A DNA stretch of 37,918 nt from a candidate division WS1 bacterium. Its GTDB lineage: Bacteria; Armatimonadota; Zipacnadia; Zipacnadales; UBA11051. Positions 4,389 through 14,132 of this stretch are shown here, in pieces; the first letter of the stretch is position 1, and every line of letters starts with the position of its first letter. A program made the translations under genes and the position numbers. The notes beneath the pieces are model-generated. The model did no database searches and was not told where the DNA came from. It saw only the letters and a list, made by a program, of their open reading frames with translations. The stretch is from contig JAAYSP010000239.1 of the NCBI GenBank assembly GCA_012518355.1, forward strand, positions 1-37,918. Reading direction: 5' to 3'.

Positions 4389-5186
4389 TTAGCGGCTCCT
4401 GGTGTAGGTCAGCCCGTAGGACCAGTATCCCAAATCGGCGACCCCCAGTACCATGGTGAAGTTGTGATCCTCCTGTGGATCTCTGAATGCATAGGTGATG
4501 TTGGCATTTACGCCTAGCGTGTCATATTCTGCAGCTACAGTTGCGCGCGGATGGAAGCGAGTGCAGACTCCGGCGAAGGGGCCCTTGAAGCGGCCAGTGC
4601 CCAGCCCAACAGTAGCATAGGTGGGGTGCCGATCTGCACTGACCTGTTTTGTTGCTACGGCGTAGAAGCTTCGCGCTTCGCCCGACAGTGGGCGGTGCTG
4701 AGTGGCTGCACGCTGGTTGCTCATGTCCATTCCGCCTATGGCCACAGCCGGTTTGGAGCCCTCTTCGGCCAGGATTTGCCACTGCCAGTTATAGCTAGGT
4801 TCACCTTTGTCGCCGGTGAGTGTGTATGCCAGATAGATTCCGTTGCCCGGTTTGCCCAGGCCAAATGCGGGATTCAGAGTCCCGTTGATTTTATCACCAT
4901 GCCAGCCCAGCGTCAGGCCGCTGTCTGCCATCCCCACATTTGCGTCGAGTATGTAGTTACCGGCGCATGGGGTGTAGGCTATTGGGATAGCCATCTGCGC
5001 AGGGCCAGCGCCACCTGCTTTCCCCTCAGGGCTGACTGTCCAGTTGTTGCCCGGCAGGCCTGAGTCAAACCTGAACTGGTAGTAGTCGTACAGATCTTCT
5101 GCGGGATAGGCAAAAACCAGCCCTGACGTCGCTAGTATGGCGGTCGTCACAAGCACTACCATCCAGATGCGTGTCGCACAACGCAT
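4389..5186 (-). CDS. Secreted protein, probable outer-membrane beta-barrel
   Basis: A 265-residue protein with a clear signal peptide (basic MRCATRIW, hydrophobic core to about residue 24, likely cleavage after GLVFA). The mature part is rich in Gly, Tyr, Thr and Asn, with alternating hydrophobic/polar strands such as NGIYLAYTL, NWQWQI, ATVAAEYDTLGVNANITYAF, NFTMVLGVADLGYWSYGLTY. This is what a small beta-barrel looks like, and it would imply an outer membrane. The protein ends in YTRSR, not in the aromatic C-terminal residue typical of proteobacterial porins. The Shine-Dalgarno GGGAGGAAAAG is strong and close to ATG 5186. It lies 95 nt downstream of the archaemetzincin-like gene on the same strand and may be the last gene of that cluster. 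No specific family is recognised. Confidence 0.7.
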   Translation of the reverse strand: MRCATRIWMVVLVTTAILATSGLVFAYPAEDLYDYYQFRFDSGLPGNNWTVSPEGKAGGAGPAQMAIPIAYTPCAGNYILDANVGMADSGLTLGWHGDKINGTLNPAFGLGKPGNGIYLAYTLTGDKGEPSYNWQWQILAEEGSKPAVAIGGMDMSNQRAATQHRPLSGEARSFYAVATKQVSADRHPTYATVGLGTGRFKGPFAGVCTRFHPRATVAAEYDTLGVNANITYAFRDPQEDHNFTMVLGVADLGYWSYGLTYTRSR

Positions 5187-5281: not shown

Positions 5282-6076
5282 TCACGGCCCTGAAAAGCTA
5301 CTGATAGCCTCCAGCAGTGCGGTGTGGTGCGCGCACAAGCGGCTTTCAAGCCCGGTCTGTGCCTGAAGCAACTCAGCCTGTGTTCGGGCCGCATGTAGCG
5401 GACAGGTAGGCTCCGCACAGGGCCCGTCGCCTGTCGCCCGATACACTACTGCCATCAGCAGATAGCCCTTGAGCAGTTCGTTTATTCGCGGATCGCCATA
5501 GCCTGCCGTTTGGTCGGCAAACTGATGAGCCAGATCCTCCAGGTACTCTTCGGCACCTAGCATCACATACTGGGCGCGTCGAAAGTTGTACTCCCGTGGC
5601 CTCGAGGGCACTTCTATCAGCCCGCTGGTAGAGACTATGGAGGGATTGCCGAGAGCTGCGACACCGCCGAACAGGCCGTTTTGCGGATCATAGTCAGCCA
5701 GCAGATCAGAGCAGATGATGATATGTAGATGCCCCAGGTCAGATTCGGCTTCCGGGATTAGCAATCGCATAGCCGCCTGCAACGGTCGAGCCAGGTAGGC
5801 AGTCTCCAGATCCACTCCCGACAGTGGCGGCAGTAGTTCATCTGTGTCCGATAGTAGCTCCGCTACACTTGCTCCAGCTAGCTGTTTGGACAGCTCTGCT
5901 TCCAGTATGTCGCGCTCAGAGGGCCCAAATCGGGCCAGGTGGTGCGTGACGAAGTCGGCGCGGGCGACTATCTGCAGCCCCGGCAGTTGACTTGCCAGGA
6001 ATCCAGCGAGGTATTTTGTGTCCAGCCCCTCGCTGTCGGGATCATCATAGATGCAGATGGTGTCTATTTGGATCAT
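5282..6076 (-). CDS. Archaemetzincin-like protein lacking the HExxH zinc site
   Basis: Archaemetzincins are zinc peptidases with HExxHxxGxxHC followed by C-x4-C and a later CxxC that binds a second zinc. In this 264-residue protein, residues 209-220 (AVVYRATGDGPC) occupy the same spacing: Gly216 and Cys220 are kept, while the zinc His, the catalytic Glu and the other two His are replaced by A, V, R and P. Then come Pro223, Cys225 (C-x4-C) and, 22 residues on, Cys248-Ala-His250. Upstream, LHIIICSDL (117-125), GLFGGVAALGNPSIVSTSGL (134-153) and FRRA match the family's core strands. I recall a database family of 'putative metallopeptidases' (DUF6775) that may be the same group, but could not check. 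The likely state is a non-catalytic homologue that keeps the structural Cys/His site. Its ATG overlaps the yggU stop (ATGA), so the two are translationally coupled. Confidence 0.65.
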   Translation of the reverse strand: MIQIDTICIYDDPDSEGLDTKYLAGFLASQLPGLQIVARADFVTHHLARFGPSERDILEAELSKQLAGASVAELLSDTDELLPPLSGVDLETAYLARPLQAAMRLLIPEAESDLGHLHIIICSDLLADYDPQNGLFGGVAALGNPSIVSTSGLIEVPSRPREYNFRRAQYVMLGAEEYLEDLAHQFADQTAGYGDPRINELLKGYLLMAVVYRATGDGPCAEPTCPLHAARTQAELLQAQTGLESRLCAHHTALLEAISSFSGP

Positions 6077-6351
6077 TTGCTCAGCGCTTGTTGCAGGCTC
6101 TGTCGAATTTGTTTGACGGAACAGCCGGATATGCTTAGCAGCTTATTTCGTGCGTTGTGTCCGCTGATGATGGCGATGTCGCTGGCTCGTATCTTCAGAA
6201 CCTGCGCGAGCAGCTTTATGGTCGCCTCATTTGCAGCACCTTTGACCGGCGCACCGGTCACCTTCACGGCCAACTGTTTACCGTTCCAGCTACAGATCTG
6301 ATTTCGTGAGGACCTGGGCGTCACTCGGACTCGCAGCTTGACCGGCGGCAT
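6073..6351 (-). CDS. yggU: DUF167 / YggU family protein
   Basis: A 92-residue cytoplasmic protein of the UPF0235/DUF167 family, whose biochemical role is not established. Recognisable parts are the opening LRVRVTPRSSRN, the hallmark VTGAPVKGAANEATIKLLA (about 30-49) and ISGHNARNKLLSI (62-74). Length and motifs are normal. The stop codon overlaps the start of the archaemetzincin-like gene by 4 nt, and the CPBP gene ends 92 nt downstream of... that is, on the 5' side of it in transcription order. In many bacteria yggU lies with yggS, proC and yggT, and the same set is seen here. Confidence 0.93.
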   Translation of the reverse strand: MPPVKLRVRVTPRSSRNQICSWNGKQLAVKVTGAPVKGAANEATIKLLAQVLKIRASDIAIISGHNARNKLLSISGCSVKQIRQSLQQALSK

Positions 6352-11846: not shown

Positions 11847-14132
11847 TCAAACGCTGGAATTGAGCCCCTGCTTTCGCGGCAGGTGTCGTGCCATGGAGGT
11901 CAGGCAGACAATCAGAAAGACGACCCCTTCGGATGAGAGCAACTCGCTGGGCGCGTCTTCGAGGTAGGTGAGGATTGCGTAGGCAGCGCGCTCAGTCTGC
12001 GATGGGAGACTTTCGCATCCGCTTATCATCTCGGCGATGTGTCGGCACTGCACAGCGAAATCCTCATCGTTGTCGTTTTCCAGATCGGAAACTGCCTGCT
12101 TGACTGCCTGCTTCAACTCTGGATACAAGGGCTGGTCATGGAGAATGGAACCACGCAGCATTCGCTGGACGCGTTGCATCATCGCCGCCCGCAGGCCGGC
12201 TCGTGCGAGCTCATCGGCAGTGGCGATACGGTAGAAGTGGTTTCTCTCACCCAGCACCCGACACACTGCGTTGATGACCTGCAACCGCACCACTGGCTTG
12301 GTCACTCGCTTGAGACCTGCCAGCGCAGGCTCCACTATGCGCAAATCGTTGCTGCGGGCAGCCGCATCCACCAGTGGGGGGAATAGGCTGTGATCGAACG
12401 GGCCTTGAAGCATCTCCAGCAGTGCTTCGCGGGCGGTCGGTGTGGGCAGGTAGCTGAGTGCCTGCACAGCCGAGACACGGACACGGATATCAGGATCCTT
12501 GAGCGCCTCCAGCAACGGCGTCAAACTGGCTTCAGAACCGATTTGCCCGAGTGCCTGGGCGGCTTCGGGGCGGATGTCAGAGTCAGCATCGGCCAGTGCC
12601 TGGATCAGCGGGTCCACAGCCTCCGTGAAACGCCCCTCACCGATACCCAGAGCAGCCTCTGCACGCACTTGATGGGAGACGTGACCGAGAGCGTTGATGA
12701 GCCGCCCCAGGGCCAGTGGTGACCCGGATCTGCCCAGGCCGCGTATGGCTGTTGCGCGAGTTTCGTCTTCACGAGCTACCAGGTACACTGCCGAATTGTA
12801 CACGAACGAAAGCAGGTTACCGCGGAACTGGCCCAGCAGATAGCCCGGCGAGGCAGCGGCGTCCTCGATGAGCCAGGCTGCACAAAGCAACGCTATGGCA
12901 TAGAGCCCCCCGGAAAGCAGGAAGACGATCTGTATACTGTTGAAATCGTGGCCCACAAGCGCAGTGGCTTCCGGCAGAGTGTTGCGCAGCAGTCCCCCGA
13001 CAAACGGCCCGACACCTGATGCAACCGCCGCTACGGCCATCCATACCCCAAAATAGGCGCTATTTTCCTGCCCTTTTGGCACGATCTTGAATAGCAGATT
13101 ACTCGTGGCTACGAAGATGCCCGACCATGCCAGGCCGTTCACACTGAACACAATCGGCAACCACAAGGAAGCGTTGTCCACGGTGACCAGCGCCCATGCG
13201 ATGACCGTTAGTATCACCGGGACGCCGAGTATTTGCATAATCGGCTTGGACCCGTAGCGCTGTGCCAGCGCTCCGAAGGCCAGGTAGCCTACCATCATAA
13301 ACAGCAACGAAAGGTTGGTGTAGATGGCGATGGTCGTGTAGGGGATTTTCAGGTAGTTGATCATGTACACGCCAAAAAAGGCGCTGGACATCTGCAGCGG
13401 CATCAACCTGGCGACCAGGTACAGACACAGTCTGCGGAATGCCGGGCTGCGCAGAGGTGTCAGCAGTCGTCGTGCATACTGAGCATCCTCCGGAGAAGTG
13501 GGGACATGCGGATAGGGAGTGGTTCCCAGCACGACATAGCCTGCAATACCCGCGAGCCATCCGAGCACGAAGATGGCCAGAAACGCCTGATAGTTCTCCT
13601 GGCGATAGTCAATCCAGAGCCCGGCCAGATACAAGTGTATCATGGACACGACGGTGGTGATGCTCATCTGACGCCCGATAAATGGCCCGCGGTGCTTCGA
13701 AGGCAACACGTTGCTGAGCCAGTTGTTGGCGATGGGGTTTATGGTGTGGCCGATGAGGCAGGCGGCTACCAGGCACGCTGCCATCGCTCCGTAGCGGTAC
13801 TGTGGCGCCAGTACTACTACCAGTATCGCGATGGCTGCCATCGTGATCTCCATGGGGCCAAAAGCGAGCACAAAGCGAGGCTTGTTGTCCACCCGCCGAC
13901 CCAGATGAAAGCTGAACAGTTGCCACACGCCCATCAGCCCGCTCAGCCCTACGAGGAACGCCACCTGAGCCTCGGTCACGCCCATGGACAGGGCATAGCC
14001 GGTGTAGATGGCCGTTGCAGGTGTGGCCAGAGGAGAGTACATGGTCCACAGTGACGGTGCTACGATGAAGCTGCGCAGCGCCTGCACTGTGGCTTGTTGT
14101 GGTAGCGGCCGTTCATCTGGCATTAGCATCAC
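11847..14132 (-). CDS. MFS-type transporter fused to C-terminal HEAT repeats
   Basis: A 761-residue inner-membrane protein. Residues about 20-425 form a 12-helix major facilitator fold; FHLGRRVDNKPRFVLAFG (75-92) and ALAQRYGSKPIM (288-299) stand at the two loop-2/loop-8 motif A positions. Residues about 455-630 are PBS-lyase-type HEAT repeats with the rhythm RATAIRGLGRSGSPLALGRL, VRAEAALGIGEG, IRPEAAQALGQIG, VRVSAVQALSYLP. The rest (630-761) is a helical cytoplasmic tail. HEAT repeats usually bind proteins, so the tail may tether a partner or sense state. The substrate cannot be predicted. GTG 14132, ATG 14129 and ATG 14123 are all possible starts; none has a clear ribosome site. The gene is divergent from the methionine-rich gene across an 813-bp gap. 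Confidence 0.85.
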   Translation of the reverse strand: MMLMPDERPLPQQATVQALRSFIVAPSLWTMYSPLATPATAIYTGYALSMGVTEAQVAFLVGLSGLMGVWQLFSFHLGRRVDNKPRFVLAFGPMEITMAAIAILVVVLAPQYRYGAMAACLVAACLIGHTINPIANNWLSNVLPSKHRGPFIGRQMSITTVVSMIHLYLAGLWIDYRQENYQAFLAIFVLGWLAGIAGYVVLGTTPYPHVPTSPEDAQYARRLLTPLRSPAFRRLCLYLVARLMPLQMSSAFFGVYMINYLKIPYTTIAIYTNLSLLFMMVGYLAFGALAQRYGSKPIMQILGVPVILTVIAWALVTVDNASLWLPIVFSVNGLAWSGIFVATSNLLFKIVPKGQENSAYFGVWMAVAAVASGVGPFVGGLLRNTLPEATALVGHDFNSIQIVFLLSGGLYAIALLCAAWLIEDAAASPGYLLGQFRGNLLSFVYNSAVYLVAREDETRATAIRGLGRSGSPLALGRLINALGHVSHQVRAEAALGIGEGRFTEAVDPLIQALADADSDIRPEAAQALGQIGSEASLTPLLEALKDPDIRVRVSAVQALSYLPTPTAREALLEMLQGPFDHSLFPPLVDAAARSNDLRIVEPALAGLKRVTKPVVRLQVINAVCRVLGERNHFYRIATADELARAGLRAAMMQRVQRMLRGSILHDQPLYPELKQAVKQAVSDLENDNDEDFAVQCRHIAEMISGCESLPSQTERAAYAILTYLEDAPSELLSSEGVVFLIVCLTSMARHLPRKQGLNSSV

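Follow-up and report, generated by a model that had tools for sequence, protein, structure and literature searches.

The window analysed here, a 37,918-nt stretch of a contig from a candidate division WS1 bacterium (Armatimonadota), carries on its minus strand a gene for a 264-residue protein immediately behind yggU. The genes and residues considered below are as follows.

5282..6076, minus strand: DUF6775/DUF7001 protein, 264 aa, with a predicted archaemetzincin fold and no peptidase site (ORF; Pfam E 2.5e-41 and 1.4e-34; fold match 2x7m)
6073..6351, minus strand: yggU (DUF167), directly upstream of the DUF6775 gene (Pfam DUF167, E 2.5e-22)
5417..5452, minus strand: residues 209-220, AVVYRATGDGPC, replacing HExxHxxGxxHC and ending at the zinc-site residue C220 (homologue alignment, hhalign register)
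5402..5404, minus strand: C225, second Cys of the presumed structural zinc site (120/120 homologues)
5333..5335, minus strand: C248, third Cys of the presumed structural zinc site (all 119 homologues readable at this position)
5324..5326, minus strand: H251, conserved His of the presumed Cys3His site (all 119 homologues readable at this position)

A DUF6775 gene behind yggU

An earlier, sequence-only reading had described the product of this gene as an archaemetzincin relative with a dead active site. The open reading frame was recovered exactly at the limits that it reported, on the minus strand and with 264 codons for amino acids, and the profile search that it proposed placed the protein in DUF6775. 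The window protein is a full-length match, far over the cut-off of 27, to both Pfam DUF6775 (PF20565; E 2.5e-41, 142.3 bits) and DUF7001 (PF22529; E 1.4e-34, 120.1 bits), with the same Cys3His residues. These two profiles match identical residues in identical genomes (35 of 201 each) and look redundant. Pfam describes DUF6775 as a ‘probable metallopeptidase’. The archaemetzincin profile M54 (PF07998) gave no match to the window protein at E ≤ 10 and none in the window genome, and NCBIfam holds no model for the protein. No relatives were found when the genome contigs were scanned with the single sequence; a profile scan did yield them. Between the congeners G001 and G003, the one pair compared, dN was 0.056 and dS 0.26 for the DUF6775 gene, which is thus a conserved gene under purifying selection in this pair.

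The TGA of yggU and the ATG of the DUF6775 gene share a 4-nt overlap, and such an overlap, ATGA or GTGA, was present in each of six inspected members of the window's family. The coupling to yggU noted earlier is therefore real, and DUF6775 may be co-translated with YggU in this family. Five other members of the window's family have all or part of the order SepF-ProC-CAAX-YggU-DUF6775, which was not observed outside that family. We therefore rejected the division/PLP cluster, which the earlier reading had offered as context, as a functional clue: it is confined to the window's own family, another family of the order (f5) has a different fixed context, and the informative neighbour is thi4, as described below. 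In f5 (L227, L228, L230-L234, L237 and L241), that context comprises, by eye, penicillin-binding-protein-like genes downstream and glmS/cdaA-like genes upstream on the other strand. Neighbours were mostly named by eye, exceptions being thi4 and those window genes that were scanned against Pfam. Two other minus-strand genes of the window were recorded. Positions 4389-5186, downstream, encode a putative secreted protein with a weak, sub-threshold YjbH match (E 0.0027), its place beside DUF6775 being conserved in the genus, and positions 11847-14132 encode a 761-aa protein that reads by eye as an MFS-like transporter with HEAT-like repeats.

The former catalytic site, the cysteine site and the fold

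We aligned 120 sequences: 40 came from Armatimonadota genomes, and the other 80 are loci drawn from many phyla of bacteria and archaea. These 80 include some Armatimonadota and were retrieved with canonical motifs, which biases them to the canonical subfamily, and the alignment holds a few duplicates. In the window protein, AVVYRATGDGPC-x4-C occupies the place of HExxHxxGxxHC-x4-C in archaemetzincins. This is the register proposed earlier, with AVVYRATGDGP in the position of the catalytic zinc motif HExxHxxGxxH and the three His and the Glu gone. The substitution proved to be fixed among homologues: a pattern search found HExxH in none of the 80 loci, and the alignment showed it in none of the 40 Armatimonadota sequences. 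The family pattern is instead QAxFYxxTGEPFC-x4-CRLYNAHWQ...C-x2-H, in which the three former ligand positions hold mostly Ala, a variable residue and Phe, and the Glu position is aliphatic. The Met of the Met-turn (C-x-M) is missing as well, with Leu at position 227 in 119 of the 120 homologues. Gly216, listed earlier as kept, is present in the window protein and common in the family (106/120), but not invariant.

Loss of the catalytic site thus appears from the alignment to characterise DUF6775 throughout, as far as the family was sampled, and an active-site loss specific to the window protein can be discarded. Of the earlier pseudo-enzyme proposal, the dead site, the second zinc site and the conservation of the gene stand; the loss is that of the sampled family rather than the window protein's own. 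Since the catalytic zinc site is missing from every member examined, DUF6775 proteins are presumably not metzincin peptidases and would lack peptidase activity.

The cysteines, in contrast, were retained as the earlier reading had stated: C220 and C225 in all 120 homologues, and C248 in all 119 with a letter at that position. Archaemetzincins have a structural zinc site, made up of four cysteines, near their catalytic site (PMC3427221). The Cys4 pattern C-x4-C...C-x2-C was not found in DUF6775; all homologues have C-x4-C...C-x2-H, and H251 of the window protein (C-x2-H) aligns with the C-x2-C of archaemetzincins. C248 is followed by both H250 and H251, and it is the latter, not H250 as first proposed, that is conserved (119/119). 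C220, C225, C248 and H251 may together bind zinc.

An AlphaFold model of the window protein (mb1b5e7149998; pLDDT 91.1) was compared with 350,542 PDB chains using Foldseek. The archaemetzincin 2x7m was the sole match below E 1e-3 (E 6.6e-5, probability 1.00), with moderate TM-scores of 0.49 and 0.69. A second model, of a distant canonical member, used 30 canonical sequences headed by that of an archaeal member (pLDDT 93.1); its only significant PDB matches were 2x7m and 3lmc, both archaemetzincins. The window protein is therefore predicted to adopt the archaemetzincin fold. The match of the upstream core strands claimed earlier is supported by structure, and faint by sequence alone: sequence searches of the PDB with a profile gave no match, and hhalign against M54 returned weak probabilities of 2.5 to 7.6, with a reversed control at 1.8. 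Two of the three hhalign alignments (probabilities 2.5 and 7.6) nevertheless put the Cys region exactly in the claimed register; the third covered only 14 columns, located elsewhere. The window protein thus resembles AmzA (M54, PF07998; 2x7m and 3lmc) in its predicted fold, its G-x3-C-x4-C spacing and its second Cys-rich pair. It differs from AmzA in lacking the three catalytic His and the Glu, in having Leu for the Met-turn Met and a Cys3His instead of a Cys4 site, and in giving no match to the M54 profile.

Canonical members, thi4 and the window clade

Canonical DUF6775 members have conserved residues of their own: H136, R138, Q208, N229, H231 and W232, and also E155 and D195. In a six-frame profile search, 71 of the 80 loci, a set biased to the canonical subfamily, proved to have a thi4 gene upstream of DUF6775 and in the same orientation; a preceding count, in which antisense ORFs masked thi4, had given only 63 THI4 neighbours. 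The gaps between the two genes are mostly tens of bases, with two longer ones of 1.9 kb (L149) and 4.7 kb (L095), and no THI4-DUF6775 fusion occurred in the 80 loci. In suicide THI4s, a Cys residue is the sulfur donor (PMC4215014). This sacrificial Cys, identified from the ITCVDP motif, could be read in 68 of the 71 upstream THI4s. Seven searched genomes have no adjacent same-strand thi4; four of these have a readable Cys-THI4 elsewhere, one has a fragment in which the residue could not be read, and two gave no THI4 match at E ≤ 1e-20. Genes resembling those for sulfur transfer (IscS-, IscU-, MnmA-, ThiF- and HcyBio-like, by eye) recur around thi4-DUF6775 at several loci between L097 and L166.

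The window protein departs from this picture. The 22 homologues from the window's order group in a single branch (SH-aLRT 98, computed without the six trait columns), and H136 is lost in all of them. The window copy also lacks R138, Q208, N229, H231 and W232, having F, G, A, R and T at positions 136, 138, 229, 231 and 232, and its gene follows yggU, not thi4. The window clade, unlike canonical DUF6775, is thus a single derived branch that left thi4 and lost most of the canonical polar residues.

THI4 could be typed in 16 genomes of this clade: 12 have only a His-type enzyme, three have both types and one has only the Cys-type. Five further genomes gave weak, partial matches to the THI4 profile only. 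In the window genome, which is incomplete, only a His-type THI4 (AAGMHVDP) was found, at a contig end and on another contig than DUF6775. Because DUF6775 occurs here in genomes with no THI4 or with only the His-type, the window clade needs no Cys-THI4. For ThiG, an alternative thiazole synthase, the window's order yielded no more than weak partial matches. Elsewhere in the window genome's class, an Armatimonadota THI4 with Ala (AAIDP) was seen in a genome without DUF6775 (L215, G045).

The sacrificial cysteine of THI4 and the role of DUF6775

We compared the occurrence of DUF6775 with the residue type of THI4 across 197 genomes of one class, centred on a Dehalococcoidia record; here as elsewhere in the analysis, most genomes are incomplete MAGs, which makes absences soft. 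DUF6775 matches were found in 22 genomes and were strong in 19; a THI4 close to the query occurs in 17 of these 19. DUF6775 was absent from all 22 genomes whose only THI4 is of the distant type. Typing of 30 close THI4s by profile alignment gave 21 with Cys and nine with Ala or Ser. DUF6775 accompanies 19 of the 21 Cys-type THI4s, two as contig-end fragments, and none of the nine Ala/Ser-type. Mapped on the THI4 tree, however, this association amounts to only two or three independent changes, and a tree-based test of it did not reach significance. Several Ala-type genomes have thi4 directly followed by a cinA-like gene, in the order thiC-thi4-cinA-like (thiC and cinA by eye); in Cys-type genomes of other loci, DUF6775 sits between these two genes. 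At loci in the class of genome G219 (L285, L287-L291 and L293-L295), Cys-clade THI4s were observed whose sacrificial position holds Ala or Ser (xAALDP), and DUF6775 was absent.

We consider it probable that the window protein is a diverged DUF6775/DUF7001 member with an archaemetzincin fold, a zinc-stabilised non-peptidase descended from a THI4 partner. According to this reading, every DUF6775 member examined lacks the catalytic zinc site, the three His and the Glu, and would keep the structural site as Cys3-His. Canonical members may be functional partners of Cys-type THI4, the ‘suicide’ thiazole synthase encoded ahead of them, in thiamin synthesis rather than in protein cutting. The window's clade, a single branch in an Armatimonadota order, would have parted from the thi4 operon and given up most of the conserved polar residues while persisting as a conserved gene, and the window copy, with a changed role, would be a zinc-stabilised binding or accessory protein and not a metzincin peptidase.

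A sharper version of this explanation, possible if unlikely, is that canonical DUF6775 serves the spent Cys-THI4, either by turning dehydroalanine back to cysteine or by handing the enzyme over for breakdown, the window copy being a relic with a changed binding role. It would account for the way in which DUF6775 tracks the sacrificial Cys, and for the Ala-type genomes that miss exactly the gene that Cys-types have between thi4 and cinA. Against it stand the few independent changes on the THI4 tree, the two Cys-THI4 genomes without DUF6775, and Haloferax volcanii, which has a Cys-THI4 (PMC4215014) yet no DUF6775 in a control search. It is unlikely that DUF6775 instead catalyses another reaction of the THI4 route, either parallel or further down, for example hydrolysis of the adenylated thiazole, with a new active site made of H136, R138, E155, D195, Q208, N229, H231 and W232 that the window copy lost. 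The enzyme-like conservation of these polar residues in canonical members and the placement directly behind thi4 would fit such a step, but Ala-, Ser- and His-type THI4s would need it equally, and the gene is missing there. It seems quite unlikely that DUF6775, with its recycled protease fold, is a factor that repairs spent, dehydroalanine-containing Cys-THI4 to working enzyme; if true, the suicide enzyme would be reusable, and the window clade would show the fate of DUF6775 once the sacrificial cysteine was abandoned.

Supply of metal or sulfur to THI4 appears very unlikely. Its precedent is a survey of neighbourhoods of non-Cys THI4s, which reported TRASH-domain and cobalt/nickel genes (PMC8454699). 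TRASH proteins are likewise small, carry a Cys metal site and are encoded beside thi4; unlike DUF6775, they have another motif and are tied to non-Cys THI4s. The Cys3His site and the IscS-, IscU-, MnmA-, ThiF- and HcyBio-like genes close to some loci (by eye) would suit a supplier, but the equivalent buried Cys4 site of archaemetzincins is structural (PMC3427221), and the preference for Cys-THI4 would be left unexplained. Finally, that the protein is still a metallopeptidase using an atypical metal site, as the Pfam description and the predicted fold might imply, is highly improbable given that no sampled member has HExxH, that the ligand and Glu positions are occupied as described above, and that the window clade has lost the other candidate His too.

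A search of the open-licence literature found no mention of DUF6775, DUF7001 or their accessions, no paper on THI4 together with an archaemetzincin, and likewise no THI4-DUF6775 link. A family described as a ‘probable metallopeptidase’ lacks the peptidase site in all sampled members, and annotations passed on from that name are therefore probably wrong. Its tie to the sacrificial Cys of THI4 marks DUF6775 as a candidate partner of the suicide thiazole synthase, and opens to experiment the question of how prokaryotes maintain, recycle or dispose of a single-turnover enzyme.
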